From Kiritimatiellia bacterium (lineage in GTDB: Bacteria > Verrucomicrobiota > Kiritimatiellia > CAIQIC01 > Lenti-01): DNA of 57,639 nucleotides. Below, in pieces: positions 6,106 to 57,626 of the stretch (the stretch's first letter is position 1; each line of letters starts with the position of its first letter). A program made the position numbers and the translations under genes. The stretch spans positions 1-57,639 of the forward strand of contig JAFXQI010000036.1 in NCBI GenBank assembly GCA_017527155.1. The letters run 5' to 3'. The notes below the pieces were generated by a model, which did not search any database, was not told the origin of the DNA, and worked only from the letters and a program-made list of their open reading frames with translations.

Positions 6106-6364
6106 GAGGACGCGCAGAAGCGCGTCCCTCCCCCGGGCGATTGCGCGCGATTGCAGTTGGAACAAACGTTGCGAACTGGGAAGGCCCGACTTCCGGGAGG
6201 GCGGACCCTGCCGCCCTGCTGTTGCGTCCCATCCGCCTGCCGGGGGCGTCCTCGCCGTCGTGCCCGCAAAAACCGCCCAGAGGAAGCGAAACGCGCCCTC
6301 TTCCCCACCGCCACCCTCGTCGCCCCCTTCGGCTGGTTTCCACAGCACCGACGCTCCTGGGAGA

Positions 6365-6611
6365 TGTCAGTCAAAGAACGTGGGGTTTCGTTCGTGAAAA
6401 GCCGTGTTGGTAGGGCGGCGAGTCCCCTCGCCGCCGGAAACGGGGACGTGCAAGGGAAGGTCATGGGAGGTGCGGATGCAAGTCGGCCGGAATCCGGGGG
6501 AAATGCGTCCGCACATTTCCGGCCACTCCCTTTGGCATGACGGGCTCCGGCGGGCAGGGACTGCCCGCCCTACCAGCGCCTGGGAAATCGCAAGGTTTTC
6601 GTCTGAGAACG
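6365..6611 (-). mobile_element. MITE-like repeat element, copy A (degenerate)
   Basis: One end carries TGTCAGTCAAAGAACG and the hairpin GGCGGCGAGTCCCCTCGCCGCC; the other carries the hairpin GGCGGGCAGGGACTGCCCGCC and GGGAAATCGCAAGGTTTTCG. The same order, in opposite orientation, occurs twice at the right end of the window. It has no coding capacity and sits between the two copies of the ATG-ending repeat. Confidence 0.7.
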
Positions 6612-6612
6612 C

Positions 6613-6704
6613 CCCGGCGGCTCGTTGCGCCCTATCATTTGGAAACAGGAAAAATCCTGACTTTTCCGCTTGTTTCGCCCATCCTTCCCTCCATGAACAC
6701 GATG
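6613..6704 (+). repeat. Interspersed repeat ending at an ATG, copy 2 of a gap-free pair
   Basis: It has the same 19 leading bases as 5901-5919 and the same CTTTTCCGCTTGTTT core, ending CCCTCCATGAACAC with ATG at 6693. The rest of the gap to glnS (6705-6861) holds only GC-rich sequence and the glnS promoter. Confidence 0.8.
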
Positions 6705-16000: not shown

Positions 16001-19000
16001 ACGACGACGGAGCCGCCGGCGATGACGTTGGTGCCGGGGCCGATGGGCGCATAGTCCGGGAAGTAGCCGCTGCCGACGGCGAAGGGCGGCGCGATGGCGG
16101 GGCCGAAGTCGGTGAAGACGACGGTGCCGCCGGTGACGGTGACGTGCGCGGCCGCGCCGAAGCTCCCGCCGCCGATGCCCGCGCTGTCGCCGACGCCCGT
16201 GCCGTCGGGGACCCCGGCCGAGACGGAGACGAGGCCGCCGGAGATTTCCACCGTGCCGCCCGCGCCGCCGGGGACGCTCATCGCCAAATCGCCGCTGCCG
16301 CCGCCGATGCCCGCACCAAAGCGGGAAATGGCGGTGACGGTGCCGCCGGAGATGGCGGCTTCCCCGCCGTCGGCCCTGTGGCCGCCGCCGATGCCCGCGC
16401 CGGACCAGGACCGGGCGGCTACGGTGCCGGAGGCGATTTCGATGCGTCCGGCGGCTTCCTTCTCGTTGCCGCCGATGGCGGCGCCGGCGTTGGCGGCCTC
16501 CGCGAGGAGGGAGCCGTCGCCCGAGATGGTGAGCGAAGTGCCGGCCGGCACGTTGACGGCGGCGTCCATCCCGATGGCGTGGAGCGAGTTGGACCCTTCG
16601 AGCGCCAGCGACGCGGAAACGCCGGGGGCAAGCGCGATGACGGGATGGGACGCGGAGGCGAGGTTCGTGAAGGCGAGGACGAGGTCGCGCGCGGCGAGGG
16701 CCATGTCGTTCGAGACGACGACCCAGACGCGGCCCTCGGTGTTGCTGCCGGCGAGGACGTGGGAGTCGCCGGAGAGGAGGAGCTGCCGGGTTCCCCAGTC
16801 GTAGGTCCAGCCTTCGCCGGAGAGTTCGCTGACGTCGCGGCCGTCGACGAGGACGCCGTAGGGGACGATGCGTTCGGCGGTGGCGTCCGCGCCGTCGACG
16901 TAGGCGCCGTAGGGGACGCCGTCGATTTCGAAGACGTGGGTGCCGTCGGGGAGCCAGAGGTAGATTTGGCCCGCGGCGTCGGCGACGATGCCGTCGGTGT
17001 TGTAGTCCGGGAGGCCCGCGAGGCCGGTGACGGCGGCGTCCGGCGCCAGGCCGGGGACGGTGACGCACCAGACGCGCGCGGTGCCGTTGGAGGGGGCCGG
17101 GGACACGGTGTCGGCCAGGGCGTGGATGCTGCCGCCGGTGAAGAGCGTCGAGCCGCCGTCCACGGCGCGTCCACGGCCGATGTCCGAGGCGTTGTCGCCG
17201 CCTTGGGCCGTCACGGTGCCGCCGGAGATGGCGATGGTGTCCACGATGCCGCCGCTACCGCCGGAGCGGACCTGGCCGCCGCCGATGCCCGCGCCGGACG
17301 AGCCGCCCGTCGCGGTGACGGCGCCGCCGGTGACGGCGATGGAGCCGACGGTTCCGCCGTTGCCGGTGCCGATGCCCGCCGCATTGCTGCCGCCCGTCGC
17401 GGTGACGGTGCCGCCGCCAATGGTGATGGAATCGACCGGGGAGCCATAGCCGCCGCCGATGCCCGCGCCGTCCATGCCGCCGTTCGCGGTGACGGTGCCG
17501 CCGGTGATGGAAATGGTGCCGCCGGCGCCGGCCCCGCTCGCGCCGATGCCCGAGGAGTTGGCGTTGCCGGTGGCGGTCACGGTGCCGCCGGAAATCACGA
17601 TGGTGCCGTTCGTCCCCCCGGAGCCGGCGCCGATGCCCGCGCCGGACGCGCCGCCGACCGCATTGACGGTGCCGCCGGATATGGCGATGGTGCCGCCCGT
17701 TCCCCTGTCGCCGGTGCCGATGCCCGCGGCGTACCGGCCGCCGGTGGCGTCGAGGGCGCCGTCGCCGGAAATCTCCAGCGACGCGCCGGCGGGAACTCCG
17801 ACAGCGGGTAGCCCGTAGCCGCCCAGGAGGGTGTTGCCGCCCGCGAGCGCGAGGGTGGCGGTGACGCCGGGCTCCAGCGCGATGGCGGCCTTGGCGCTTG
17901 CGCCCGAGAGGGTCAGGCCGCCGGCGGTCAGGGTCATGTCCGCCGCGATGGTGGCATTCACGCGGCCCTCGGTGTTGGAGCCGGCGAGCACGGGGGCGCC
18001 GGCGGAGAGGACGAGGTTCGACGATTGCATGTCGTAGGTCCAGCCCAGGCCGATGCCGGCGCAGACGTCCGTGCCGTCCACGGTGACGCCGGTGGGGTTC
18101 GACGGGTCGGTGCGGAAGGCGGTCGCGGGGCCGCCGGCGACGCGGACGGCGTAGTCGAGGGAGTTGGCCTTGAAGGCGTAGTCCCCGTCGGCCACGTAGA
18201 AGAAGTAGCGGCCCTCCGAGTCCGCCGTGGAGACCAGGTTGGTCGTCACGGCCTGGATTTCGAGGGTCACGTCCGCGCCGGGTTCGAGCCCCGGGACGGT
18301 GACGCGGTGGAGGATGTTGGTGTCGGAGGGGTCGGACGGGGGGAGGTCGCCGGGCGGGACGTCGCTGCCGCCGTCGGCCGCGAAGTCGACGTCCTGCTTG
18401 TAGAGCGGCCGGACGGTGGTGTTGGTGTAGGGATAGGGGGTGGTGAAGTACTGCCCGCCGGCCACGACGACGTGCGCCTTGTTCGTGGCGGCCATCCAGA
18501 TGCACACGCGCCCCTGGGAGTCTGCGGCGATGCCGTCGGTGGAGTAGCCGTCGGGAAGCTCGGCGCAGGAGACGGCGACCTCCGCGCCGGGCGTGAAGCC
18601 GCCCATGCGGACGGCGTACAGCAGGTTGCTTTCCGCATCGACGGGGCGCGGCGCGACATGGTTGGCGCCATGGTCCGGGACGACGCTCCCGCCGCGGATG
18701 GAGAAGGCGTATTCGTCGCCCGTCGCGGAGATCGTGCTGTTGGCGCGGATGAGGTCGGAACCGGTGCTCCCGCCGCCCCACGAGGCCTCGACGCTGCCGC
18801 CCGCGATCCGGACGGCCCCGGCCGCGTTCGCTTTCGCCCCGTTGGGGAAGTGGCCGGCGCCGATGCCCGGGGCGTTGGTCCCGCCGATGCCGCGGACGAT
18901 GCCGCCTTCGACGACGATGTTGTCCGCCTTGTCGAGCGGGGCGCTGAGCCCGCCGCCGATGCCGGCCGCCTTCTCGCCGCCTTGCCCGGTGACGGTGCCG

Positions 19001-22000
19001 GACTGGATGCGGATCTTGCCGGGCGGCGCGTTGCCGCCGCGCGAGCCGATGCCCGCCGCGTTCTTGCCGCCGGTGGCCGCGAGCGAGCCCCTGCCGGAGA
19101 TGGTGAGCACGGCGTTGCTCGCCACCTCGACGCCGGCGGCGTACTGGCCGGCCGCCGCGAAGACGTTCGAGCCGGAGATCGCGAGCGAGGCGTCGCGCCC
19201 GAACGCCATCGCCGAGGCGTATCTCGCCGACAGCCCCGTGAGCGTGAGGTTCTTGATGGAGACGGACGAGGCCCCCGAGTCCGCCGGGACGTCGATGCGG
19301 AATTCGCCGTTCGTCGAAAGCCCCTGGATGTCGGCGTTGGCGGAAATCGTCACGACGCCGTTCGATTTCGCGAACGACCAGCCCGTGCCCGAGTTGTCGG
19401 CGTTGGACGCCACCGGCTGGCCGTTGACGACGAGGAAGCCGCGGACCGAGACGGCGCCGCCGTCGTCGATGCCGAACGAGAAGTAGTAGGTGTTGCCGCC
19501 CGCCATCGTGACGCCGGCCACGAACGCCTCGCCGGCGGTCGAGGGCAGCCACGCGCGCAGCGTGCCGTTCGTGTCCGTGCAGAGGTCGGTCGCGCCGTAG
19601 GCGTAGCCCGCGAGCGCGCCGGAGAGGGTGAAGGCCGTCACCTTGTTCGTCGCCTCGCCGATCGCGAAATCAATCGGGAAAACGGCCTTGGAGGCCGTGT
19701 TGCTCGGCGCGGGGGAGATCTTGGCGAGTGGCGAATAAACGGCGCCGCCCGCAATCGTCACGGCCCCGCAGGAATTGTAGGACCCCGTGCTCTTGCCGAT
19801 GGTGCGGAAGGCCGAGGGGGGCACCGTGGCGTTGATGGTTCCGCCGGAGATGGTGATCGTTCCGCAGGCGGCGTAGTCGGCGGAGCCGATGCAGGCCGCA
19901 TACGCCGACCCGCAGGCCGCCGTAATGAAGCCGCCGGAGATTTCGACCGCCACCCCGGAGGCGAACCCGCTGACTCCGGCGTCGCCCGCGCCGATGCCGG
20001 CGCCGTAATCGCCGCCGCCCGTCGCTTTCACCACGCCGCCGGAAATGCGGATCGTGCCGCCCTTGCCGTTGTAGCCGCTGCCGATGCCGGAGGCGCAGCA
20101 GGCGCCGCCGTTGTCGCAGAAGGCCGTGACCGTGCCGCCGCTGATGGAAATGCTCGTGAACGTCGAGCTGTTGCCTCCGCCGATGCCGGCGCCGTACCTC
20201 ACCCCCGTCGCCGTCACGGTGCCGCCCGTGATTTCCACCGTGCCGCCGGAGGAATTTTCGCCAACGCCGATGCCGGGGGCGTAGTAGCCGCCGTGCGCGG
20301 TCACCGTGCCGCCCGTGATCCGCACCGTGCCGCCGATGGCGTTGCGGCCGCTGCCGATGCCGGCGCCGCCGTAGCCGCCCCTCGCATGGACGGTGCCGCC
20401 GGAGATGACGTACGTCCCCATGCCCGCGCCCTGCGAGCCGCCGATGCCCGCCGCGCTTTCCTGGCCGGTCGCCGTGATCGTCCCGCCGGTAATCGTCACC
20501 GTCCCGAAGCCGCTCCCCTTCGCCGCGCCGATGCCGGAGCCGTACTCGCCGCCGTTCGCGACGATCGTGCAGCCGTCGATTGTCAGTTTGCCCGTTCCGC
20601 TCGTCTCGCCGACCATGCCGCCGATGCCCGGCGCGTTCGCGCCGCCGGTCGCCGTCACCGTGCCGTCGCCGTTGATCGTCACCGTGCTGCCCTCGGCCAC
20701 GTAAACCGCCGGATGCCCGGAGCACCCGGTCAGCGTGTTCGTCCCCTTGAACTGCAGCGTCGTCGTCTTGCCGGAGACGCTCTCGAACGGCGGCCGCGCG
20801 ATTGCGATCGACGCGTTCATCGTCAGGTTGCTCATCACCACCGTGCAGTTGGCATTGGCATGGACGCTGAACTCGCCGTAGTTGTCCGCGCCGGTGATGA
20901 CGAACGTTCCCGCCGACGTGAGCGAGAGGCGCCCGTCCGCGCCGTTGTAGCTCCAGCCGGTGCCGGACTTCGACACGCCGCCGACGAGGCCCGTGCCGTT
21001 GATCGAAATGCGGCTCGCCGCCGCTTCGTCCGCCAGCGTCCAGTGCGCATGGAGCGTGAGGTCGCCGATCGTCGTCCATTCCTGGGCCTGCGCCGTGCCG
21101 CTCGCGTCGTAGTACTTCGTGCCGGTGCCGTTCGCGCCCGTGAACCATCCGTGGAACGTCCAGCCGGCGCGCGCCGGCGGAATTGGCGCCGGCGGATACG
21201 CATAGGCGAGGCGCGCAGTGCGCGATTCATTGATGCGCTGCCCGTCCTGGAACGTGACCTGATATTCGATCGCGGAGTGCGTGGTGGCGCTGTTCGCCAT
21301 GTAATACGAGGCGTTCAGCGTCACGTCGGAATCCCTGTAGAGTGAGGTGTTGCCGCCGTTGTTGTTGCCGCCCGATGCGCCGCCGCTGCCGCGATAGCCG
21401 CCGCGATTGTAGGTCGTGTCGCCGTTGTGCGTTGTATCCGGACTGCTGCGCCCGGCGGATTCGCCGTTGTCCTTTCCACCCTCGCCGCCGGCGCCATCGG
21501 GAGTGCTGGGGTTTCCCGTGCCGTAGTTGCCCTTGTAGGTATAGCCGCCGTTGCCGCCCGAACCGCCGCCGCCGCCGCCGCCGCCGACATACCACCACAG
21601 GTTTCCGGCGCCGTAATAGTCGTGGCAGCCTCCGGTATTGCCGCCAGCCGAACCACCGGAGCCGCCGGAGCCGCCCCAGGCCGATACGGTCACTCTGCCA
21701 AGTATATACACCGTTCCCATGGCGTAGCCGGTGCCGCCGTCGCCGCCCGACTTGCCGTTTGTGCCGTCGCGGTCGTAGGAATCGCTTATGGCAGTCTCGA
21801 TCTCGCCCGCATCGTAGGGACGCGCACCGCCGGCGCCGCCGTTGCCGCCGCGTCCGCCGATCGCCGCCGCCGCCCCGCCGCCGCCATCGCCGCCGGCGCC
21901 GCCGTTCCCGGAGTGGGATTTATCCCTCGCCAACGATGAGCCGCTCGCACTGCCGCCGTTCCCGCCGCCCGCGGCGTTGCCGCCCGTCACGTTGAGCGTC

Positions 22001-22392
22001 CCGTCGCCCGTCACGACGAGCGTGCCGCCGGACTGCACCTCGATGGCCGCGCCGGCCCCCGACGTGCCGCTGGCATCGCCGCCCGTGATCGTGAGCGTCT
22101 TGCCGCTGGGGATGTAAATGACCGTCGTCACGCCATTTTCGACCTTGAAGGCGGATCGGGCCAGCATGCCCGTCACCCGGGTGTCGCCCGTGACTTTGTA
22201 GACGGTGTTGTTGTCAAGAGCAACCCCCCCCACCGAAGAGTTGTGGTAGAGGGCCGTGAAATCCTTCACCGTCGTGAACCCCGTGCCGCCCAGCGCCGTC
22301 GCCGCCGCGATGACGCAAAGCGCCGCCCCCAGCGCCGCCTCCGCCGCCAGCGCCGCGACCCGCCGTCCAAACCGATAACCCGTGCAACTCAT
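13066..22392 (-). CDS. Giant secreted beta-helix-type repeat protein (3108 residues)
   Basis: The N-terminus has basic residues followed by a long hydrophobic stretch (VAALAAEAALGAALCVIAAA), a probable Sec signal or anchor. Residues about 105-345 are extremely Gly-rich (GGAGGDGGGG, GGGGGGGGSGG). An InlB/Listeria-Bacteroides-type repeat lies at about 379-450 (VTFQDG to LHAHW, with GWTFHGWFTG). The rest is about eight imperfect modules. Each has short ladders such as ISGGTVTATGG and AAGIGTGNGG, as in Cthe_2159-like or right-handed beta-helix proteins, plus a linker like GIVADASGTVVLWLPNGTY and GTDV...GWTYD. No LPXTG, autotransporter barrel or protease motif is visible. GGAG lies about 10 bases before ATG 22392. 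It is probably an adhesin or carbohydrate-binding surface protein, with release or anchoring unknown. Confidence 0.82.
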   Translation of the reverse strand: MSCTGYRFGRRVAALAAEAALGAALCVIAAATALGGTGFTTVKDFTALYHNSSVGGVALDNNTVYKVTGDTRVTGMLARSAFKVENGVTTVIYIPSGKTLTITGGDASGTSGAGAAIEVQSGGTLVVTGDGTLNVTGGNAAGGGNGGSASGSSLARDKSHSGNGGAGGDGGGGAAAAIGGRGGNGGAGGARPYDAGEIETAISDSYDRDGTNGKSGGDGGTGYAMGTVYILGRVTVSAWGGSGGSGGSAGGNTGGCHDYYGAGNLWWYVGGGGGGGGSGGNGGYTYKGNYGTGNPSTPDGAGGEGGKDNGESAGRSSPDTTHNGDTTYNRGGYRGSGGASGGNNNGGNTSLYRDSDVTLNASYYMANSATTHSAIEYQVTFQDGQRINESRTARLAYAYPPAPIPPARAGWTFHGWFTGANGTGTKYYDASGTAQAQEWTTIGDLTLHAHWTLADEAAASRISINGTGLVGGVSKSGTGWSYNGADGRLSLTSAGTFVITGADNYGEFSVHANANCTVVMSNLTMNASIAIARPPFESVSGKTTTLQFKGTNTLTGCSGHPAVYVAEGSTVTINGDGTVTATGGANAPGIGGMVGETSGTGKLTIDGCTIVANGGEYGSGIGAAKGSGFGTVTITGGTITATGQESAAGIGGSQGAGMGTYVISGGTVHARGGYGGAGIGSGRNAIGGTVRITGGTVTAHGGYYAPGIGVGENSSGGTVEITGGTVTATGVRYGAGIGGGNSSTFTSISISGGTVTAFCDNGGACCASGIGSGYNGKGGTIRISGGVVKATGGGDYGAGIGAGDAGVSGFASGVAVEISGGFITAACGSAYAACIGSADYAACGTITISGGTINATVPPSAFRTIGKSTGSYNSCGAVTIAGGAVYSPLAKISPAPSNTASKAVFPIDFAIGEATNKVTAFTLSGALAGYAYGATDLCTDTNGTLRAWLPSTAGEAFVAGVTMAGGNTYYFSFGIDDGGAVSVRGFLVVNGQPVASNADNSGTGWSFAKSNGVVTISANADIQGLSTNGEFRIDVPADSGASSVSIKNLTLTGLSARYASAMAFGRDASLAISGSNVFAAAGQYAAGVEVASNAVLTISGRGSLAATGGKNAAGIGSRGGNAPPGKIRIQSGTVTGQGGEKAAGIGGGLSAPLDKADNIVVEGGIVRGIGGTNAPGIGAGHFPNGAKANAAGAVRIAGGSVEASWGGGSTGSDLIRANSTISATGDEYAFSIRGGSVVPDHGANHVAPRPVDAESNLLYAVRMGGFTPGAEVAVSCAELPDGYSTDGIAADSQGRVCIWMAATNKAHVVVAGGQYFTTPYPYTNTTVRPLYKQDVDFAADGGSDVPPGDLPPSDPSDTNILHRVTVPGLEPGADVTLEIQAVTTNLVSTADSEGRYFFYVADGDYAFKANSLDYAVRVAGGPATAFRTDPSNPTGVTVDGTDVCAGIGLGWTYDMQSSNLVLSAGAPVLAGSNTEGRVNATIAADMTLTAGGLTLSGASAKAAIALEPGVTATLALAGGNTLLGGYGLPAVGVPAGASLEISGDGALDATGGRYAAGIGTGDRGTGGTIAISGGTVNAVGGASGAGIGAGSGGTNGTIVISGGTVTATGNANSSGIGASGAGAGGTISITGGTVTANGGMDGAGIGGGYGSPVDSITIGGGTVTATGGSNAAGIGTGNGGTVGSIAVTGGAVTATGGSSGAGIGGGQVRSGGSGGIVDTIAISGGTVTAQGGDNASDIGRGRAVDGGSTLFTGGSIHALADTVSPAPSNGTARVWCVTVPGLAPDAAVTGLAGLPDYNTDGIVADAAGQIYLWLPDGTHVFEIDGVPYGAYVDGADATAERIVPYGVLVDGRDVSELSGEGWTYDWGTRQLLLSGDSHVLAGSNTEGRVWVVVSNDMALAARDLVLAFTNLASASHPVIALAPGVSASLALEGSNSLHAIGMDAAVNVPAGTSLTISGDGSLLAEAANAGAAIGGNEKEAAGRIEIASGTVAARSWSGAGIGGGHRADGGEAAISGGTVTAISRFGAGIGGGSGDLAMSVPGGAGGTVEISGGLVSVSAGVPDGTGVGDSAGIGGGSFGAAAHVTVTGGTVVFTDFGPAIAPPFAVGSGYFPDYAPIGPGTNVIAGGSVVVTNVAKMQGGATDAAGVTVWPVTFAGLAPGATVAFADFERDGAPAAYGTSGIVADASGTVVLWLPNGTYTGTVDGTAFWAVVDDAPATARLDLPTGVYVDGTDVQAASGDGWSYDFMTGWLVVSNGDHVVSGTNTEGRVVVAVTNTLTLAVSNLTLAVGAETELPAFVVRPNATATLRLHGENSLRGGKYNAAVEVPLYASLTVTGTGTLAATGGYHGAAIGGRSMNTCGRITLSGGTIFPVAGETAPAIGRGAQSYSGGFVHFTGGSVVVDRDAVVPAPSNTVGQAVWPVTVEGLEPGAPVAIAVSPGSYGTDGIVADPAGKIVLWLPNGFYDLDVGGTAYVASVHDAGDTAEPAGAPVGVLADGVDLKYRHGANWTFTATNGELAVEGSCTVSGSNTARRIHLHLANDSRVTCSNLAITSGSTVVLDPGTRATLRGIGFNNMKAVGDYAIWGGSGAQATIESGTFSFGGGYMSPRPVIRGGSVYGSVFGNEHATDGTRDVWRVTAGGFGAYAPVALEGLPAGYDVSEIHADASGNIYLWLPDGTYSFTADGAEYLVRVDGAYATAEPYTPRGVTVDGTDVGRLSGPGWSYHPGTKHLAVNADCVISGTNDAGAVSVRVAADCAVTCSNLCLRLAGTTGAYSPVLLGDGVSATLLLSGSNTLWAGSGSAAVGVPTGTALTVAGDGILDASGAYTGAGIGGWNTTGCGTVAIESGILLLARGAGAACIGGGERGAGGDVAISGGTVLLREFTSYPVPYAIGGGRNSSGADGTLTITGGSLGELPRSTASHALPLDLLGSAPTNAAGAPVYSVAITNLAPNAPVAFSNLPASYGTDSIVADAFGNVFLWLPDGDYTFTAGGATWDAAVAGGSTAAVRRAVAAPGGASPLSVVPSSLTYDPSSGAVTFTVTADTPEELDAALQKLTIRTRTSLLDDAPAATVPHTATRTRSGATATLTVPFDTGPSTPDSIRFYFLETAP

Positions 22393-23876: not shown

Positions 23877-24013
23877 GCCGCGGAGCGCTTGGCGGACAAT
23901 TTGCACAAAAGGACAAAAAGAAAACAAAAGAGTCGGCTGGAGTGCGGGAGGAAGGTCAACATTGAACCCCATGCAACCCGCTCTGCGGCCATGGAAAGGC
24001 GGGAGGGAAGCGG
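23877..24013 (+). repeat. Interspersed repeat R7, copy 1
   Basis: It contains TTGCACAAAAGGACAAAAAG, then CGGCTGGAGTGCGGGAGGAA, GTCAACATTGAA and GGCCATGGAAAGGCGGGAGG. It shares this order with 24305-24436 and, inverted, with 26981-27060. The surrounding stretch 23760-24500 has no gene, only repeats. Confidence 0.8.
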
Positions 24014-24304
24014 CTGCGCCGTCGGGGCGCGGGCGTCCCGCCCGCGTGCTTCCGAAAAGCGGAAACCAAGCGAAAATCCCAATGTTTTCTGTAATCTCAC
24101 ATCCACCCACGCGCCAGGAAGCCCCCCTCGCCTCCGAACGCCCGCGCTGCCCGTCCCCCAGCTTCCGCGCCACTTCCGGAGGTGCGGCATCCTGCCGCGC
24201 CATGGCGGATGTGGGGCGCAAGAATGCCTCACGCAAAGTCCGCCAAGGCCGCCAAGTGTGCGGGAGGGGAGCGGGAAGGAAGAACTCACGCGGAGGCGCG
24301 GAGA
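24014..24304. repeat. Intergenic repeat mosaic upstream of the low-GC island
   Basis: It contains the palindrome GCGGGCGTCCCGCCCGC (about 24028-24044), a minus-oriented stretch related to the ATTTTCGCTTGGTTTCC repeat (24050-24100), the TGCGGCATCCTGCCGC hairpin unit (24167-24201), CACGCAAAGTCCGCCAAGGC (24231-24250) and CTCACGCGGAGGCGCGGAG (24285-24303). The last two types also recur near 30655-30735. Confidence 0.7.
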
Positions 24305-24436
24305 CGCGGAGGGCTTGGAGGACGCTTTTGCACAAAAGGACAAAAAGGGAACGAACGGGACGGCTGGTGTGCGGGAGGAAGGTCAACATTGAAAACCATG
24401 AAAACTGCTCCGCGGAGATGGAAAGGCGGGACGAGG
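24305..24436 (+). repeat. Interspersed repeat R7, copy 2
   Basis: Same unit as 23877-24013, with AACATTGAAAACCATGAAAA well preserved. It ends about 70 bp before the base composition drops into the AT-richer island. Confidence 0.8.
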
Positions 24437-24663
24437 ATGCATACAAACCAAAAGTATGAACCCGCGTTCTTTTTGTCTTGCGGAATATTAACGAATGATA
24501 CATCATCGTGTGTATGAACCGAACACTTTCCAGAACAAAACGCATGGGCTATGCCCTCCCGCAACAGCGCGGGCCACTGACATTGGCTGAACACCATGCA
24601 GCGTGGAATGGCCAACAGGGGGCACATGGGGGCTATTCCCCTCGGTGGAGATACCGCACGTCG

Positions 24664-25419
24664 ATGGATTCAGATTTTCCGCTTTTATTCAAATGGGAGG
24701 ACGGGTATGCTGAATCATGCTTTTCGGAAGCAGGGAAGACTCCCGCCAATAAATCTCTGGATTTTGTGAAAATGAGCAAAGATATTCAATCGAATCCAAA
24801 TGCAACACCTGATGGGGCTTTGCGTTGCATCGATTTGTTTGCTGGTGCGGGCGGCCTTTCCGAAGGTCTTTCCGAAGCTGGATTCCACAGCCTTTTTGCC
24901 GTGGAGGTTGTGCCGACCTATGCCCAAACCTATGAGTTCAACCATCGCGGGGCACAGGTGACAACAGCGGACATACGGACGCTGGACGCCGAGGAAATCC
25001 GCAAGCGACTCGGAATCGAACGGGGGGAACTCGACCTCATCGCGGGTGGTCCTCCATGCCAAGGGTATTCAATCAATGCTCCCGTCAGGAGCGTCCTCGA
25101 CCATCGAAACCATCTGTTCAAGGAATATCTCCGTTTTGTCGATGCGTTCCAACCCCGTTGCATACTTATCGAGAACGTTCCGGGGTTGGTGTCGTTTGAA
25201 AGCGGAAGAACCTTGCACGCCATTCTCGACTCACTTGCCGAACTTGGTTATGGGGCCGACGTGCAGATTTTGGGCGCGGCTTATTACGGAGTTCCGCAAA
25301 TGCGCTGGCGGACCGTCATTATCGGCACACGGGGGAAGGAACTGCCACCCGAGTCTTTCCCGGACCCCATTTGCCACGCCCCCATTGAGCCCAATTTCTT
25401 GTCATCATTAGCGGCCTAG
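24664..25419 (+). CDS. Truncated C5-cytosine DNA methyltransferase (lacks target-recognition half)
   Basis: 251 residues from ATG 24664, which is preceded by GGTGGAG. Motif I DLFAGAGGLSEG is at 57-68, the catalytic motif IV GGPPCQGYS has its Cys at 132, motif VI ENVPG is at 170, and motif VIII QMRWR is near 212. Translation ends at FLSSLAA, soon after motif VIII. The target-recognition domain and motifs IX-X, another 120 or more residues, are therefore missing, and no frame downstream restores them. ATG 24772 is an alternative start that still keeps motif I. Codon use and GC are clearly unlike the flanking genes. It is probably an inactive remnant; a split enzyme with a distant second subunit is possible. 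Confidence 0.8.
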   Translation: MDSDFPLLFKWEDGYAESCFSEAGKTPANKSLDFVKMSKDIQSNPNATPDGALRCIDLFAGAGGLSEGLSEAGFHSLFAVEVVPTYAQTYEFNHRGAQVTTADIRTLDAEEIRKRLGIERGELDLIAGGPPCQGYSINAPVRSVLDHRNHLFKEYLRFVDAFQPRCILIENVPGLVSFESGRTLHAILDSLAELGYGADVQILGAAYYGVPQMRWRTVIIGTRGKELPPESFPDPICHAPIEPNFLSSLAA

Positions 25420-25435
25420 CATTACAAAGGATTCA

Positions 25436-25963
25436 ATGATCAACTATCAGTTTTTTCCGCGGTCCAGAGGCGTCACGCCAGAGATCAAAGCGATTATTGA
25501 TTGTTTTCGGGAAGCTGACGCCAAGAAGCCGCCACAACATCTCGTCTCTAATGCCATGCTGGAACTTGTGCGCCCGTCATTGGAAGCCATTGGCTTCCGT
25601 GTTGAGCGCGGCAAAGGCAAGGAAGACAAAATTGATGTTCCCGTGCTGTTTGGAGAAAACAACGTTATTGACAAGTCTTTTTATGCGGACGCGGTTAGTG
25701 CCGACAACAGAATTGTTGTTGAGGTTGAATCGGGAAGAGCTGTTGATAACAACCAATTCCTCAAGGATATATTCCAGGCTTCAATGATGTTTGAAGTGGA
25801 ATACCTCGTTATTGCTGTGTTGAACGAATATGTCCGAAAAAAACACAAAGGCGAATCTTCTATTCAGCATGATTTTCAAACGATAAAAACTTTTCTTGAA
25901 ACAATGTATGTTTCAACGAGACTGCAACTACCTCTAAAAGGCATTCTCCTTATTGGGTATTGA
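25436..25963 (+). CDS. Putative PD-(D/E)XK-type nuclease, restriction-system-like
   Basis: A 175-residue protein starting 17 bp after the methyltransferase stop, with AAAGGA before ATG 25436. It has an acidic pattern compatible with a PD-(D/E)XK nuclease: KIDVPVLFGENN, DKSFYADAV and IVVEVESGRAVDNNQFLKD, followed by hydrophobic strands FEVEYLVIAVLNEY and LPLKGILLIGY. Proteins of this type occur as stand-alone or restriction-associated genes, but I cannot name the family with certainty. The gene is AT-rich like its neighbours. It sits where the missing half of the methyltransferase would be expected, which suggests insertion or recombination. Confidence 0.55.
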   Translation: MINYQFFPRSRGVTPEIKAIIDCFREADAKKPPQHLVSNAMLELVRPSLEAIGFRVERGKGKEDKIDVPVLFGENNVIDKSFYADAVSADNRIVVEVESGRAVDNNQFLKDIFQASMMFEVEYLVIAVLNEYVRKKHKGESSIQHDFQTIKTFLETMYVSTRLQLPLKGILLIGY

Positions 25964-25987
25964 TAGTTTGTAAGTTGAGGCACACGT

Positions 25988-26227
25988 ATGAAAAATAAAG
26001 TTGCACTTGTGAGCATTGTTGAGAGAGACGCCGCGAATTCTTATGAGTTCACGTCAAAAGTGTTTGCCAATATCGCCAAAGCCGAGCAGTGGGTTGAGTC
26101 TCAAATCACGAAGCTCATTAAACAGTATAAACTTGATCCAGACATCTCGGTCGATGGATGGTTTGTCCAATTGGCTGGGTGGGCTCATACCGTCCAATTC
26201 GACATAGTGGAAACAACCATCTACTGA
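25988..26227 (+). CDS. Small hypothetical protein
   Basis: 79 residues from ATG 25988 (GAGGCAC upstream). Features: KVALVSIVERDAANSYEFTS, a helical middle AKAEQWVESQITKLIKQYKL, and DGWFVQLAGWAHTVQFDIVE at the end. No family is recognised. It is cytoplasmic, with no signal or membrane segment. It lies 24 bp after the putative nuclease gene and shares its low GC, so the two may form one inserted unit. The end overlaps the reading frame of the NotI-like fragment. Confidence 0.5.
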   Translation: MKNKVALVSIVERDAANSYEFTSKVFANIAKAEQWVESQITKLIKQYKLDPDISVDGWFVQLAGWAHTVQFDIVETTIY

Positions 26228-26730
26228 ATCTCAGGGAAGATGGTGCCATAGCCGTTTTCGGGAAGCAGTGGGGCGGTGAATTGCGCCTGCCGCAGCGGGA
26301 GGGCGTGGGGTCGTATTTTGTCGATTGGGTGCTTGTCCTATTGGACGGCCAGGGGCAAATCCGCGAGTTCACGGCGGTGGAAGTCCAGACCGTGGACACG
26401 ACGGGCAACTATCATGCTTCGCGCCAAGCATTGGAAGAGGGGCGCGGAATGGCGAGAAGCACGGTCGGCATCAATTGGGAGAACGTATCCAAGCGAATCA
26501 TTCCCCAACTCATCTACAAGGGACAAGTTTTACAACGCGAAGATTTGTGCAGGGCGGGGTTGTATTTTGTCTGCCCCGATCCCGTTTACGACAGGGTGTT
26601 GCGGAGGCTTGGTGGCACGGAACGGATTCCGGCATTCCCTTCACAACCTGCATCCATTCATTTCGTATCCTACGACTACGATTCAGCCACGACAGTGAAA
26701 AACGGGATAATTACTCCGCTGACGATTTGA
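26158..26730 (+). pseudogene. NotI-like restriction endonuclease, 5'-truncated catalytic fragment
   Basis: The open frame gives 190 residues. From about residue 21 it resembles the catalytic part of NotI-type endonucleases: GGELRLPQ, then FVDWVLVLLDG (D56) and FTAVEVQTVDTTGNY (E75, Q77). This is the D...E-x-Q arrangement known for NotI. NotI itself is about 380 residues with an N-terminal Cys4 iron domain; that half is absent. The first 20 residues (MVCPIGWVGSYRPIR) are read from the overlapping end of the small gene at 25988 and look artificial, so the fragment probably has no native start. Low GC like its neighbours. Its partner may have been the truncated methyltransferase at 24664. Confidence 0.65.
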
Positions 26731-27124
26731 CGAACCCTGTGCACAACAGTATATAAAGTCCAAGAAGCGTTTTCTTCAATGACTCTTCCCGAAGGAAATG
26801 TTTACCAACGTGCCATTGAAAAATCTCTTTATGAGTAAATAAACTTGCCGAGGATGCATTTTCCGCCCTCTTTCCATCCGTTTCCCCTCGGGGGGGGCGC
26901 CCACGCACCCAGTCGCGGCTCGGTTTGGGCGCGCACCTTGGAAAGAGTTGTCCCGAGTTGTCCCGAGTTGTCTCCCCCATCCGCATCCCTCCCGCTTTTC
27001 CATGTCCGCGAAGCGGTTTTCATGGTTTTCAATGCCGCCATCCCTCCCGCACTCCAGCCGCCCATTTTTGGAAAACCCGCCATCCCCCCGCGGGCCAGCG
27101 GATTGCGCGCCCCTTCCTTCGGGG
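26731..27124. repeat. Intergenic region with inverted R7 copy and GTTGTCCCGA tandem
   Basis: 26731-26850 is AT-rich with no gene. 26947-26976 is about three tandem units of GTTGTCCCGA. 26981-27060 is the R7 repeat in minus orientation (GCGGTTTTCATGGTTTTCAA, CCCTCCCGCACTCCAGCCG), facing the copies left of the island. Confidence 0.7.
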
Positions 27125-51954: not shown

Positions 51955-52075
51955 GGATTCTTCCCCTCCTGCCGACAGCAATCGACGGCAATCGAATGCA
52001 ATCGATGGCCGTCGAATCCCCCGCCCCATCGCATTTTCCCCGCCCCCGACTTTTTTCCGCCGGCCGCATAAGATT

Positions 52076-52105
52076 TTGCCGTTTGCGTGCAATATCGTGT
52101 AGAGT
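52076..52105 (+). promoter_or_regulatory. Putative promoter of the Trx-LRR/kinase operon
   Basis: TTGCCG (52076-52081), an 18-bp spacer and TAGAGT (52100-52105), 65 bp before ATG 52171. Confidence 0.5.
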
Positions 52106-52170
52106 GGCGGAGTGCAATCCGGCAGGTGGCCGGAGGCGGTCCCGCCCTCCGCCAACGAAAGGACCCATCC

Positions 52171-54183
52171 ATGAATGCCCCCATCCCCGCAACCAGCAAA
52201 CGCCGGTTTCCGGCCCTTCTTCTCGCGGCGCTCCTCGCGGCGGCGGCCGCGGCCGTCCCGGCGCTCACGGCCCGGGCGGAGGACGCGCCCGCGCTCGTCA
52301 ACGGCGCGCGGGTCGACGGCGCGGAGCCCGGCGAATGGACCCACGACTGGGACGCCGCCACCGCCGCCGCGGAACGGACCGGGCGGCCGCTCTTCGTGCT
52401 CTTCACCGGAAGCGACTGGTGCCCCTGGTGCAAGATTCTCGACCGGCAGGTCTTTTCCACGGACGAATGGTCCGCGTGGGCGCGGGAAAACGTCTACCCC
52501 GTGCGCGTCGATTTCCCGAGCAACGCCTCCCTCGTGCCGGAAAAGCACCGCGCGCGGAACCGCGAACTCCAGCGCCGCTACGGCATCGGCGGCTACCCGA
52601 CCTGCCTCCTGCTCGATCCGGCCACCCTCTCGCCAATCGGGCGCTTCGGCGCCTCGCGGGACGTGACGGCCGCGGACTTCGTCCGGCGCGTCGCCGCCGC
52701 CATCCGCGGCGCGCCGGATGCCGCCCCCGCCCCCGCGCCGGCCCCGGCGGCACCCAAGCCCCCCGCGCCCAAACCCGCACCCGCCGCCCCCGCCGCCGCC
52801 CCGGAATTCGACATCCGCAACGGCGTCCTGGAGCGCATGACGGCGAACGACGCCGTGGAGGTGACCGTCCCGGAAGGCGTCCACACCGTCTGCCTGGACG
52901 CGCTCGTCCAGTCGGGCGTGAAACGCATATCGATCCCCGAAGGCGTCGAAACGCTCTCCCGCAAGTCCGGCGGCTACCGCCCCGGCGTCCCCCTGGAACG
53001 GGTATCGCTCCCGGCCTCGCTCGAATCGATCCGGCCGACCGCCTTCGACGGGCACTGGCGCCACCTCCACCGCATCGACATCGCCGAGGGCTCCCCGTAC
53101 CGCATGGAGGACGGCTGCCTGATCGACTCGCGGAGCGGCTCCGTCGTGTTCGCCCTGCCCGGACGCCCGACCGTGCGGGTGCCCGCCTCGGCGACGGCCA
53201 TCGGCGACTGGGCCTTCAACGCGAACGACGCCGTCAAGATCGCCATCCCCGAAGGCGTGGTGGCCATCGGCCGGGGCGCCTTCGACGATTGCCGCAGTCT
53301 GGAACGCATCTCCATCCCCGCCTCCGTCGAGGCCATCGGCGACAACGCGTTCGCCAACTGCGGCAAGCTGGCGAACATCGAAATCGCGCCCGGCAACCCC
53401 CGCTTCGCGGTGCGCGACGGCCTGCTCGTCGATCGGGAGATGGGCCTCCTCCTGCGCGCGTTCGGCCCGCTGGTCCGCGTCGTGGTGCCGGACGACGTGC
53501 GGGCCATCGGGGAAAGCGCGTTCTCCTTCCAGAAGACCCTCGTGTCGGTGACCGTCCCCCCGACCGTCTCCCGCATCGGCGACAAGGCCTTCTCCTACTG
53601 CACCAACCTGGAGGAACTGCACCTGCCGGAGCGGCTCGACGCCTGCGGCGAACATTTCATCATGGGCTGCGAAAGCCTCCGGGAAATCCGCCTCCCGGCG
53701 TGCCTGGAGCGCCTCTCGGGCATGTTCTCCATCGGCGGCTGTTCGAGCCTGCGGGAGCTGGCCCTCCCAGAAGGCCTGCGGACCATCGACGCCTACGGCC
53801 TCGGCGCGGTCTGCGAATGCACCGCCCTCGAACGCATCGTCCTGCCCGCCAGCCTGGAGCGCATCGCGAGCGGCCGGGCGTTCATGAAGAACCCCGCGCT
53901 CCGGGCCTTCGAGGTCCACCCCGGCAACCCCGCCTTCCGCAGCGAGGACGGCGTCCTCTTCAGCCGCGACATGACCCGCCTCGTCCGCTGCCCCGAAGCC
54001 AAGTCCGGCGCCTACGCCATCCCGGACACCGTCACCCGCATCGACGACTCCGCCTTCGCCGGTTGCCGCCGCCTGGAGAGCATCCACGTCCCCGACGGCG
54101 TGGAATCCGCCGGCCGCGGCGCCTTCGAGGACTGCCCCGCCCGCCTTTCCCGGCCCGTCCCCGAAGCCCCGTCCGCCCGCTAG
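52171..54183 (+). CDS. Secreted thioredoxin-fold plus BspA-type LRR protein
   Basis: A 670-residue protein. The signal peptide has a hydrophobic core LLLAALLAAAAAAVPAL with cleavage near ARA-ED (about 36). A thioredoxin-like domain (about 50-185) carries GSDWCPWCKIL with CPWC at 84-87 and the cis-Pro region GGYPTCLLLDP, giving a predicted redox site. A Pro/Ala linker follows (about 195-215). LRR_5 (BspA/TpLRR) repeats fill 225-660, e.g. RISIPEGVETL, IGDNAFANCGKLANIEI and ITRIDDSAFAGCRRLESIHV-like units. GAAAGGAC precedes ATG 52171. The kinase gene 15 bp downstream has the same LRR type in its C-terminal part, so the two products probably share a ligand or a location outside the membrane. Confidence 0.88.
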   Translation: MNAPIPATSKRRFPALLLAALLAAAAAAVPALTARAEDAPALVNGARVDGAEPGEWTHDWDAATAAAERTGRPLFVLFTGSDWCPWCKILDRQVFSTDEWSAWARENVYPVRVDFPSNASLVPEKHRARNRELQRRYGIGGYPTCLLLDPATLSPIGRFGASRDVTAADFVRRVAAAIRGAPDAAPAPAPAPAAPKPPAPKPAPAAPAAAPEFDIRNGVLERMTANDAVEVTVPEGVHTVCLDALVQSGVKRISIPEGVETLSRKSGGYRPGVPLERVSLPASLESIRPTAFDGHWRHLHRIDIAEGSPYRMEDGCLIDSRSGSVVFALPGRPTVRVPASATAIGDWAFNANDAVKIAIPEGVVAIGRGAFDDCRSLERISIPASVEAIGDNAFANCGKLANIEIAPGNPRFAVRDGLLVDREMGLLLRAFGPLVRVVVPDDVRAIGESAFSFQKTLVSVTVPPTVSRIGDKAFSYCTNLEELHLPERLDACGEHFIMGCESLREIRLPACLERLSGMFSIGGCSSLRELALPEGLRTIDAYGLGAVCECTALERIVLPASLERIASGRAFMKNPALRAFEVHPGNPAFRSEDGVLFSRDMTRLVRCPEAKSGAYAIPDTVTRIDDSAFAGCRRLESIHVPDGVESAGRGAFEDCPARLSRPVPEAPSAR

Positions 54184-54198
54184 CCCGAGGAGCCCGCC

Positions 54199-55956
54199 AT
54201 CGCCCCCGCCCCCGACAGCACCTATCTCGACGGCTGGTTCGCCCGCCACCGCACCGCCGGCCGCTCCGCGCGGCGGCTTGCCGACGGCGCCCGCTTCGCC
54301 GGCCTCGACGTGCTCGCGTTCCTCGGGCGCGGCGGCAGCGGCGAAGTCTACCGCGCCCGCCCCCCCGGCGGCGGGCCCGCCGTCGCCCTCAAGGTCCTCC
54401 GCCACGACCGCGCCGACCTGGCCGCGCGGATGCGGCGCGAAGCCGGAATCCTCGCCGCCCATCCCCATCCGGCCCTGCCGCGCCTGCTCTCCGCCGGCGA
54501 GGAGGGCGGCGTGCCCTATCTCGTCCTCGAAGAGCTGGCCCCGCGCGACCTCCCCTCCCGCGACCGCGACGTCGCCGCCTTCCTGCTCGCCCTCTGCGGC
54601 GGGGTGGAACACCTCCACCGGCTGGGATTCGTCCACCGCGACATCAAGCCTTCGAACATCCTCTGCCGCGCCGACGGCTCGCCCGTCCTGATCGACCTCG
54701 GCCTCGTCAAGGACCTCGCGGAGGAAGAAGAACCCGCCCCCGATCCGGACGGCGGCGCCCTCTCCGCGGTCACGGGCGGCGCCGTCGGCGTCGGCACGCC
54801 GGGCTACTCCGCCCCCGAGCAGTTCGCCGGCGGCAGGATCACCCCCTCCGCGGACGTCTACGCCCTCGGCGTCCTCGCCGACGAATGCTTCGCCCACCGC
54901 CCGCCCCGCTGCTGGCGCGCCCTGCTGCGGCGGGCGACGAGCGCCCTCGGCGCCGAACGCCCGGACTCCGCCGCCGCCTTCGCCCGGGCCATCCGCCGGC
55001 GGCACTGGCCCGGCAAGCCCGCCCTCCTCGCGGCCCTGGCGGCCACGGCCGCGGCCACGGCCGCCGCCCTCGCCCTCCGCGCCCCGCCCGTGCCCGGGAA
55101 CGTCCCCTGGACGCTCTCCTTCCCGGCGGGCATCGAAGACGCCCACTGGAACGCCACCATGACCGACGGCAACTGGTTCCTCGCCGCCTGCGCCGCGGAG
55201 GGCACCCTCTGCGTCAAACCCGACTATTCCCACGGCAACGGCGTCCTGGACCTCGCCAAGCCCATCCGCGACGGCGACGGCCGCCCGTGGACCCTGACCG
55301 CCGTGGGCCTGCCGCCACTGGATGGCGGCAACCCCGAATTCCCGCGCACGGACCGCCTGCGGCTTGCCGGCGAAGTCTCCGCCATCCGCCTGCCGGACAC
55401 CCTGGTCGAATTGGGGGCCGGGGCGCTCATGAACTGCGGCACCCTGCGCGAAATCGACCTCCCCGACTCCCTCCGCCGAATCGGCCCGTGGGCGTTTTCG
55501 GGGTGCCGCTCCCTGCGGCGGCTCTCGATTCCGGCGGGCGTGGAAGACGTTTCCGACGACCGCACCTTCCTCGAATGCGAATCCCTGGAAGCCATCGACA
55601 CCGCCCCCGGCAACCCGGCCTACCGCTCCGACGGCGGCGTCCTGCTTTCGGCGGACGGCACCCGCCTCGTCGCCTACCCACCCGGGCGCTCGGCGGAAAG
55701 CTACGCCATCCCCGAAGGCGTGGAAGCAATCCCCGGCCACCTGTTCGCGCGGTGCCTCCACCTCAAGTCCGTGTCCGTCCCCGCCACCGTGCGGGAAATC
55801 GGCCCCCACGCCTTCGCGGGCTGCCGCTCCCTCGCCACCGTCACCGGCGACCCCGCCGCCCGCGTCCGCCTCCTCGGCAATCCCTTCCTCCACACCGCCG
55901 TCCGCCAGTTGCCGTGGAACGCGCACGCGCAGAGACGGGCGACGAGCGACGAGTGA
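54199..55956 (+). CDS. Ser/Thr protein kinase with transmembrane helix and extracytoplasmic LRR_5 domain; apparent ATC start
   Basis: 585 residues if translation starts at ATC 54199. Kinase motifs: Gly loop LGRGGSGEVYRA (about 41-52), VALKVLRHD with the ATP Lys, HRDIKPSNIL, DLG (LIDLGLVKD) in place of DFG, and GTPGYSAPEQFAG. A transmembrane helix lies at about 274-294 (LLAALAATAAATAAALAL), then LRR_5 repeats (LPDTLVELGAGALMNCGTLR, IGPHAFAGCRSLATV). No ATG or GTG gives a full kinase domain: the first GTG (54310) starts only three residues before the Gly loop and loses strand 1. Codon ATC 54199 has a perfect GAGGAG exactly 6 bp upstream and gives APAPDSTYLDGWFARHR, so it is the likely start. 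The gene begins 15 bp after the Trx-LRR gene. Confidence 0.82.
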   Translation: MAPAPDSTYLDGWFARHRTAGRSARRLADGARFAGLDVLAFLGRGGSGEVYRARPPGGGPAVALKVLRHDRADLAARMRREAGILAAHPHPALPRLLSAGEEGGVPYLVLEELAPRDLPSRDRDVAAFLLALCGGVEHLHRLGFVHRDIKPSNILCRADGSPVLIDLGLVKDLAEEEEPAPDPDGGALSAVTGGAVGVGTPGYSAPEQFAGGRITPSADVYALGVLADECFAHRPPRCWRALLRRATSALGAERPDSAAAFARAIRRRHWPGKPALLAALAATAAATAAALALRAPPVPGNVPWTLSFPAGIEDAHWNATMTDGNWFLAACAAEGTLCVKPDYSHGNGVLDLAKPIRDGDGRPWTLTAVGLPPLDGGNPEFPRTDRLRLAGEVSAIRLPDTLVELGAGALMNCGTLREIDLPDSLRRIGPWAFSGCRSLRRLSIPAGVEDVSDDRTFLECESLEAIDTAPGNPAYRSDGGVLLSADGTRLVAYPPGRSAESYAIPEGVEAIPGHLFARCLHLKSVSVPATVREIGPHAFAGCRSLATVTGDPAARVRLLGNPFLHTAVRQLPWNAHAQRRATSDE

Positions 55957-56286
55957 CGGGATATCGTGCCGCCACCTTTTCCAACGCGGACGCTCAGAAT
56001 CGCCTCCCTCCCCGCGGGGGAGGGTCGCGCTTCCGCGCGACCTTGTGGGTGGAAACCGGCCGGGAAGCTGCAGAAAACCTTACCTCGCTCCAGTGGAAGC
56101 ACCTCACGGAATCTTTCCGATTCCTGTCCGGGCCACCGGGAAAGAGGTTGGAGCGTGTTTTCGGAGCGTGGACACCCCTCCGGCAAACTCGACCTCCAAA
56201 ACCCTCCGGGCCTCCTTTCTCCGTTCCCTCCGTGTTTCGCGCCGCGAGCCCGTTTTTCGCAGGCCGCCCAGTCAACCCGTCGCTCG
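55957..56286. repeat. Gap between convergent genes with GGGTCGCGCTTCCGCGCGACC hairpin
   Basis: 56018-56047 is a close copy of the palindrome at 30788-30818 (both continue CTTGTGG). It lies between the kinase gene and the opposite-strand sigma gene and may terminate both. Nothing else is recognised in the stretch. Confidence 0.7.
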
Positions 56287-56901
56287 TCACGGCTCCGCCG
56301 ACGCGAGCGCGGCGACGATCTTCCGCATGCGCCCGAGCAGGCGGTTCTTGATCTGGTCGACCGCGTTGCGTTCCATCCCGAAGGCCTCCGCGACGGCGGC
56401 GGGGCTTTCCCCCGCCACGGCGCAGCGCCGGAAGACCTCCCGGGTCCGTTCCTGGAGGGCGGGATCAGCGAGCACCTGGCGCAGGGCGATGTCGCATACC
56501 GCGTCGCGCCATTCGCCCGGGTCCGGCCCGGAAGCGTCCGCCGTCGCGGGGGTGGCGGAGGGGATGGAGAGGGCGTAGTCGCCGTCGGCGGCCCGGGACC
56601 GGGCGCGGCGGGCGAGCGCGCGGAGGGCGCGGTTGCGGAGGATGCCGGTCAGGTAGTTGTGGAAGGACCCGAGCTCCCCGGGGTCGTACCGGTAGTCCGG
56701 CAGCTTCTCCACCAGGACCAGCAGCGTCTCCTGGACGAGGTCGTCGGCCTCCCCCGCGAGGGTCGGAAAGCCGCGCGCGAGGTAGGCCCGCATCATGGGA
56801 CGGTAGCGGTTGGCGAAATCGGCCCACCGCAAACTCTGCCGGTCCGCCGCGATGTCCCGCAGCAGCCGTTCCGAAGTGGTTGGCGCCTCTTTCGTCTTCA
56901 T
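56287..56901 (-). CDS. ECF-like sigma-70 family RNA polymerase sigma factor
   Basis: A 204-residue protein. Region 2 (about 22-95) has FANRYRPMMRAYLARGFP, EADDLVQETLLVLVEKLPDY and FHNYLTGILRNRALRALARR; region 4 (about 155-200) has TREVFRRCAVAGESPAAVAE, MERNAVDQIKNRLLGRMRKI. Regions 1 and 3 are absent, as in ECF sigmas. ATG 56901 gives MKTKEAPTTSERLLRD; the frame runs open to the right edge, but upstream sequence is repeat DNA without homology. No anti-sigma gene is adjacent on either side. The convergent Trx-LRR/kinase operon is the nearest possible regulatory partner. Confidence 0.88.
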   Translation of the reverse strand: MKTKEAPTTSERLLRDIAADRQSLRWADFANRYRPMMRAYLARGFPTLAGEADDLVQETLLVLVEKLPDYRYDPGELGSFHNYLTGILRNRALRALARRARSRAADGDYALSIPSATPATADASGPDPGEWRDAVCDIALRQVLADPALQERTREVFRRCAVAGESPAAVAEAFGMERNAVDQIKNRLLGRMRKIVAALASAEP

Positions 56902-57038
56902 CGCCCCCGATGGTGCCAAAACCCGCCGCGGAAGTAAACCCGCTTCCCCGCCCCCACCCCGGGTGCAGGAGAGGCACATCACCGGTTCGCCCATGGTTTC
57001 CGCACCGGCAATCGGACCAATCGGAGTTTCTCTATCTT

Positions 57039-57296
57039 GCAATGGAGTTGTCAGGTGAAAACCTTGCGATTTCCCATGTGCAAGGATGGGTAGGGCGGGC
57101 AGTCCCTGCCCGCCGGTGTCCGTCATGCCGAAGGACGTCGCCGGAAATGTGCGGACGCACGTTTCCCCAAGTCCCGGCTGAATGGCATCCGCATCTCCCA
57201 TGACATTCCCTTGCACGTCCCGGCATCCGGCGGCGAAGGGACTCGCCGCCCTACCCGGCTTCGCACGGGCGAAAACACAAGGTTTTGCCTGATGGC
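57039..57296 (+). mobile_element. MITE-like element, copy B
   Basis: Left end TTGTCAGGTGAAAACCTTGC with TAGGGCGGGCAGTCCCTGCC; interior GTCCGTCATGCCGAAGGACG; right end CGGCGGCGAAGGGACTCGCC then TACCCGGCTTCGCACGGGCG and AAAACACAAGG. The two ends are long imperfect inverted repeats of each other. No coding capacity. Confidence 0.75.
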
Positions 57297-57365
57297 TTGC
57301 CGCGACCTGGACGCCCATGGTTTCCGCATCGGCAATCGGACCAATCGGAGTTTCTCTATCTTGCA

Positions 57366-57626
57366 ATGGAGTGGTCAGGTGAAAACCTTGCGATTCCCCA
57401 TGTGCAAGGATGGGTAGGGCGGGCAGTCCCTGCCCGCCGGTGTCCGTCATGCCGAAGGACGTCGCCGGAAATGTGCGGATGCATGTTTCCCATTCGTTTC
57501 GGCCGAGTTGCATCCGCACATCCAACGTCATCCGATGGTACGTCCCGGCATCCGGCGGCGAAGGGACTCGCCGCCCTACCCGGCTTTGCACGAACGAAAA
57601 CACAAGTTCTTCGACTGACAACTCCA
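57366..57626 (+). mobile_element. MITE-like element, copy C
   Basis: Same structure as copy B but with the best-preserved right end (TTCTTCGACTGACAACTCCA), which mirrors the left end GGAGTGGTCAGGTGAAAACC. The middle differs from copy B between about 57480 and 57540, so the two copies have diverged or recombined. Confidence 0.75.

Follow-up and report, generated by a model that had tools for sequence, protein, structure and literature searches.

A conserved module of a thioredoxin-LRR protein, an LRR-kinase and a convergent ECF-type sigma factor in Kiritimatiellia, with a possible role in envelope sensing

The window analysed here is one contig of 57,639 bp (C79; GenBank JAFXQI010000036.1, positions 1 to 57,639 of the forward strand) from the draft genome of a Kiritimatiellia bacterium (GCA_017527155.1; 3.2 Mb in 114 contigs). 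Close to its end lie a gene for a secreted protein that joins a thioredoxin (Trx) domain to leucine-rich repeats (LRR), at 52171–54183 (+), a gene for a transmembrane Ser/Thr kinase with an LRR ectodomain, at 54199–55956 (+), and, convergent with these two, a gene for an extracytoplasmic function (ECF)-type sigma factor, at 56287–56901 (−). The sequence-only reading of this DNA had identified all three genes in this way, and domain matches confirm it. The genes form a real and conserved module. We compared it with 17 genomes of the family to which the window belongs (f1) and with a class-wide set of 345 genomes.

The Trx-LRR protein has 670 residues and a hydrophobic N-terminus (KD19 2.25), and matches Thioredoxin_7 (E = 7.6e-14) and LRR_5 (E = 4.4e-50). 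The Thioredoxin_7 (PF13899) match scores 52.0 bits against a cut-off of 27 and covers residues 55–150 (52333–52620, +), with SDWCPWC as the active site and CPWC as its CxxC; the BspA-type LRR_5 region runs approximately from 52888 to 54165 (+). The nearest solved relative of the Trx domain is 2ju5 (E = 1.9e-15), which we take to be chlamydial DsbH. Like DsbH, described in the available part of PMC5193440, the protein carries a thioredoxin-like periplasmic reductase domain; unlike DsbH, it is fused to LRRs, and it scores 80.8 with the NCBIfam DsbH equivalog NF043050, below the cut-off of 190. The LRRs of the module are of the same repeat family as those of BspA-type LRR_5 surface proteins (4gt6, 4fs7), from which they differ in that one forms the presumed sensor domain of a kinase and one is fused to Trx.

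The kinase gene has no in-frame ATG at its beginning, and a start at GTG 54310 would remove part of the kinase N-lobe. Since ATC 54199, 15 nt past the Trx-LRR stop, is aligned with the starts of three homologues (ATG, GTG and GTG) and has GAGGAG six bases ahead of it, this ATC is likely to be the start, or else a sequencing error. A comparable case is the GTC start of sigR, with repression by IF3, as given in the available text of PMC5472188. The kinase protein matches Pkinase (E = 6.9e-29) and LRR_5 (E = 2.5e-21). Its kinase domain match (54313–54906, +) has intact HRD and DLG motifs, and the catalytic residues of a Hanks-type kinase (K65, E81, H146-R147-D148, N153 and D166-x-G168) are invariant in the three kinases aligned. 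The C-lobe is short and incomplete, the Pfam match ending at position 196 of 263. From APE to R[YP] there are 47 residues in 46 of 48 sigma-linked kinases (of the two others, one has 54 residues and the second is truncated where its contig stops), as against 76 in L060 and L059, two other kinases of the window genome. About 29 residues are therefore missing between APE and the last helix in the sigma-linked kinases (54313–55092 and relatives), presumably at the position of helix G in a standard kinase. A single hydrophobic, presumably transmembrane segment (residues 275–293, 55021–55077, +; KD19 2.06 at residue 275) is followed by the extracytoplasmic domain, composed of a cap and LRR_5 repeats (55093–55953, +).

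The sigma factor, of 204 residues, fits the ECF type, which has sigma regions 2 and 4 alone: TIGR02937 scores 63.0 bits (cut-off 42.9; residues 27–194, E = 2.5e-17), and Sigma70_r2 is also above its cut-off, whereas the region 4 models are below theirs (17.5 vs 25.7). Region 2.2 reads EADDLVQET, and its three acidic positions are D or E in 45, 48 and 49 of 49 sigmas. Ahead of region 2, Thr9 is invariant (49/49) and Ser10 is present in 47 of 49; that these residues are the phosphosite of the sigma factor is only a guess. The remark in the sequence-only reading that an anti-sigma gene is lacking holds for the DNA that can be read: none was recognised among the genes around the loci, where no anti-sigma profile search was made and where the window ends 738 bp past the sigma start. 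Within this last stretch, just behind the sigma start, lie two copies of a dispersed repeat of ~295 bp (56988–57281 and 57312–57606), which has a further copy at 6360–6613; the copies are 80–91% identical.

A profile built from three LRR-kinases was searched over the 345 class genomes and, among the matches listed, a kinase with an LRR match was found in five: the window genome (G000), G001 (locus L049), G015 (L053 and L054), G282 (L141) and G284 (L140 and L199). G282 and G284 belong to family f27. Within f1 the kinase orthologue of G001 is 98% identical, from residue 222 onwards, and that of G015, divided between the ends of two contigs, 82% and 60%; the sigma orthologues are 99% identical in G001, 72% in G015, 72% in G284 and 69% in G282, and the Trx-LRR orthologue in G015 67%. 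A sigma gene of the same clade lies convergently behind the LRR-kinase in all five genomes, and a Trx gene lies 4–15 nt upstream of the kinase in each of the four that have upstream DNA (the window, G015, G284 and G282). The observation set beforehand as fatal to the idea of a module, a sigma or Trx gene not kept beside the kinase in related genomes, was accordingly not made. The full arrangement is intact in the window, L140 and L141, and in G015 it is broken between the ends of L053 and L054; G001 has only kinase and sigma factor, its contig starting inside the kinase. In a contig-level kinase scan the sole listed match extending over the LRR was L199 (G284; CAMVRE010000030.1, uncultured Verrucomicrobia bacterium), the others listed being mostly unrelated kinases.

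The surroundings of the module vary. In G001, DNA of an exonuclease gene (L049:9203–9583) is found ~8 kb from the kinase end, while in the window the exonuclease gene precedes the Trx gene, and G001 would thus have either a different upstream gene order or a misassembled contig. In G282 a gene for an LRR_5/Laminin_G_3 protein of 1220 residues precedes the Trx gene. Related genes for secreted or lipoprotein-like proteins (VQNHASD...) occur near the module at L140:3303–4373 (−) in G284 and at L054:2470–3918 (−) in G015; one of those in G284 is preceded, at 37 nt, by the promoter-like motif described below.

The association of kinase and sigma factor extends well beyond the LRR type. From more than 150 sigma matches we examined 63 strong loci, mainly the top-ranked. 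At 49 of these, a kinase of the same family is encoded directly downstream on the same strand, with a gap of −13 to 113 nt and often an overlap; five are convergent (one of them, L054, holding only the C-terminal part of the kinase), two have the kinase upstream on the same strand, and seven have no kinase match, at least one of these being at a contig end. A kinase gene that stays next to the sigma gene from one relative to another is the arrangement of ECF factors regulated by serine/threonine protein kinases (STPK). The distance matrices of 49 sigma-kinase pairs correlate with r = 0.68, a value reached by none of 5000 permutations (best 0.22), though the common ancestry of the genomes confounds this signal. 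In the sigma tree and the kinase tree alike, the four LRR-type pairs group as a single clade (support 0.96 and 1.0). As a side observation, the sigma family is strongly expanded in genomes of family f26, with up to 10 matches per genome.

Because the kinase lies directly downstream in 49 of the 63 sigma loci and because the trees agree, we consider it very likely that kinase and sigma factor are partners. It could be argued that they are mere neighbours, the kinase acting on other proteins, given that in the window the two genes are convergent and are not co-transcribed, and that region 2.2 of the sigma factor is intact. This explanation does not account for paralogous sigmas lying directly ahead of paralogous kinases, for convergent pairs that are mutual closest relatives in both trees, or for a convergent arrangement kept in five genomes, and we regard it as very improbable.

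The ectodomains of these kinases are varied. Of 34 scanned, eight have FGE-sulfatase, three LRR_5 (the window, L140 and L141) and two TPR domains, the rest having none or single families. Trx genes follow the LRR type: all four LRR-kinase loci whose upstream DNA is available have one, and none of the 52 other loci does (56 loci with a kinase of the same family in total), as judged with a search model made from three close Trx sequences, which more distant Trx domains could escape. It is likely, in our view, that the Trx protein is a functional part of the module.

The claim that LRR_5 repeats occur on both proteins is correct. As a sign of pairing these shared repeats are weak, and we rejected them as evidence of it: the window genome has 76 LRR_5 matches, and the kinase LRR is closer to an LRR protein on contig C112 (45%, 4.9e-34) than to the adjoining Trx-LRR protein (42%, 9.1e-25). 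The architecture of the Trx proteins also varies, being Trx-LRR-linker-Trx-Laminin_G_3 in G015, Trx-linker-LRR in G282 and Trx-linker-Trx in G284. What is constant across the four genomes is the Trx domain (SDWC[GP]WC), not the LRR.

These data bear on the proposal that the Trx-LRR protein bridges, or oxidises and reduces, the kinase LRR through LRR-LRR contact and a dedicated disulfide. LRR_5 repeats are indeed found on the Trx protein in the window, G015 and G282, and the last domain of the G282 protein resembles the kinase ectodomain, scoring 205 bits with the kinase profile. No LRR_5 match is found on the Trx protein of G284, and bridging was consequently rejected as a conserved principle. 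The disulfide fares no better. Of the seven cysteines in the ectodomain of the window kinase, five sit at LRR-consensus positions ([FLIVM]xxCxx[LVI]) and are shared by all five sequences extending over these sites; the remaining two, 331 and 338, lie outside the consensus and are not conserved, and a regulatory disulfide between them was rejected on this ground. With an LRR-free Trx protein in G284 and no conserved ectodomain cysteine outside the LRR consensus, we regard the bridging proposal as improbable.

The consensus cysteines themselves form a ladder, and a dedicated reductase could plausibly act on a row of this kind exposed to an oxidising envelope. DsbH, according to the excerpt of PMC5193440, helps to maintain a reducing periplasm. 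The window genome also has a DsbD-type (DsbD_TM) match (E = 2.7e-35), a possible electron source for the Trx protein. The same cysteines may be seen in another light, in which the kinase-sigma pair reads LRR ligands, such as surface proteins of a host or neighbour, and the co-transcribed Trx protein only catalyses the folding of LRR proteins and takes no part in signalling. In agreement with this, the Trx gene is found with LRR-kinases and not with kinases of other ectodomain types, ladder cysteines are found in every LRR protein examined, and secreted proteins encoded nearby in G282 and G015 contain LRR_5 and Laminin_G_3 domains. A general catalyst of LRR folding would not be expected at one locus alone, however, and against its 76 LRR_5 matches the window genome has only two matches to the Trx domain, one of them weak. 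We consider this reading, a ligand-sensing pair with a passive Trx protein, less likely than not.

A promoter-like motif, TAAGA-N16-CAATATCG, is found at 52069–52097 (+), 73 nt upstream of the Trx-LRR ATG. In all four resolved cases (the window, L053, L140 and L141) TAAGA-N16-[CG]AATATCG lies 72–80 nt upstream of the Trx start, and a copy on the opposite strand is found upstream of the sigma gene in G015. The copy in the window is the sole exact match in its 3.2 Mb genome; with up to two mismatches allowed, the window has one match, where 0.26 are expected by chance. In 30 chosen genomes there were nine exact matches, eight in four of the five module genomes and one in the 25 others, and two with the backward control pattern; in the 345 class genomes there were 43 in 34 genomes, and 21 with the control. 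Seven of the eight matches in module genomes are on the contigs of the module itself. Matches per genome are ~16-fold more numerous in module genomes (Poisson 7.7e-8; Fisher p = 3.7e-4), both statistics being partly circular because the pattern was defined from five sites before the search. Three of the eight were new: one ~80 nt ahead of an LRR/Laminin_G_3 gene in G282, a second 37 nt ahead of a divergent lipoprotein-like gene in G284, and a third in G015, on contig C4.

From its position and distribution the motif is fairly probably the promoter of the module's sigma factor. It might instead belong to another regulator or be a housekeeping promoter, without autoregulation, a view favoured by the TAGAAT-like hexamer that follows most sites and by the 35 matches in genomes that lack the module. 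The enrichment in module genomes, the location of seven of eight matches on module contigs and the constant spacing of 72–80 nt to the Trx start make this unlikely.

These observations can be brought together as follows. The LRR ectodomain of the membrane kinase would sense the state of the envelope, and the cytoplasmic kinase domain would then act on the sigma factor of the convergent gene and change its activity, most likely via phosphorylation. The sigma factor would transcribe the Trx and kinase operon from TAAGA-N16-[CG]AATATCG, in positive autoregulation, and in relatives may also transcribe a few neighbouring genes for secreted proteins. The exported Trx domain would serve as a DsbH-like thiol oxidoreductase for cysteine-rich LRR proteins, the kinase ectodomain included, and its action would keep or restore their reduced, folded form. 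A feedback loop would in this way be closed outside the cytoplasm, similar to that of SigR, RsrA and thioredoxin with a kinase replacing the redox-sensitive anti-sigma factor, and the sign of the feedback is presumed. Taken as a whole, this kinase-controlled envelope module, autoregulated and with Trx acting on the LRR sensor, is to us a serious candidate somewhat short of an even chance; its redox feedback, taken on its own, is a tentative proposal.

Several points weigh against it. The intact acidic region 2.2 makes the charge-restoring switch of EcfP inapplicable, and the sigma factor may not need phosphorylation. The motif is absent ahead of the sigma gene in the window, its 35 matches outside the module are spread over 30 of 340 genomes (one with three), and only three of the eight matches in module genomes are new, that on C4 being a near-copy that repeats a site already used. 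A Trx gene of the module type was not found anywhere in the G001 assembly. Finally, ladder cysteines are also present in four other LRR proteins of the genome, and are not specific to the sensor. A more specific form of the proposal is an extracytoplasmic thiol-redox homeostat, in which the ladder cysteines sense, Trx resets them, and the helix-G-less kinase phosphorylates the sigma factor, with its intact region 2.2, elsewhere, for example at Thr9-Ser10. We think this form unlikely as it stands.

The principle of kinase-linked ECF control is known, as the sequence-only reading had noted for some groups (PMC8999054, PMC13147305 and PMC8103513, all as partly available), and EcfP and EcfK are described as STPK-linked sigmas activated by phosphorylation (excerpts of PMC8999054 and PMC13147305). 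STPK-regulated groups named in the available text of PMC8999054 are ECF43 (EcfP/PknT and EcfK/PknS), ECF59, 61, 62, 217 and 283. The module resembles them in that the genes for an ECF sigma factor and a transmembrane Hanks-type kinase are neighbours and in that the kinase ectodomains vary; in the surrounding genes that could be read, no anti-sigma gene was recognised. It differs in that its kinase is missing the segment from helix F to helix H and has an LRR_5 ectodomain, and in that the sigma gene is convergent with the Trx-kinase operon. In ECF43 of the EcfP type the acidic motif of region 2.2 is replaced by uncharged residues and a phosphorylated Thr; the sigma factor of the module keeps EADD, and the ECF43/EcfP mechanism was rejected for it on this account.

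The second relative is the SigR-RsrA-thioredoxin feedback of Streptomyces, where a cytoplasmic zinc anti-sigma factor senses disulfide stress (PMC3961337, in its available part). Here too an ECF sigma factor is linked with a thioredoxin, which may serve to reset the sensor. Unlike the Streptomyces system, the module has a membrane kinase in the place of the anti-sigma factor and an exported Trx protein, and its redox sensing is inferred. As for transcription of thioredoxin by the sigma factor, the motif is shared among the Trx genes but does not precede the sigma gene in the window. A literature search of open-licence papers found no publication on the combination of Trx, LRR-kinase and ECF sigma factor. 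The earlier suggestion of a new arrangement is therefore justified for composition and gene order and does not apply to the principle.

Elsewhere in the window, a giant open reading frame at 13066–22392 (−), which spans ~3107 residues and shows internal repeats as well as matches to Beta_helix_3, may encode a surface protein, and a stretch of low GC content at 24000–27000 (0.48–0.57 vs ~0.70 in the flanks) is possibly an acquired segment. An Rfam scan of the window gave no matches.

If the proposal is true, the module would offer a compact test system, with three genes, a candidate promoter and a clear set of orthologues, for kinase-linked ECF factors that keep the acidic core-binding motif; kinase-linked ECF groups still need characterisation, according to the available text of PMC8999054. 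In the envelope it would form the counterpart to the loop of SigR and thioredoxin. Were the homeostat form to prove true, the wider family with its swappable ectodomains (FGE-like, TPR, beta-helix and LRR) would amount to a large and so far unstudied collection of kinase-sigma receptors. Even with the redox part wrong, the survey still reveals, in a class of bacteria that has received little study, a big family of receptors that each pair one kinase with one sigma factor and whose outer domains are interchangeable.

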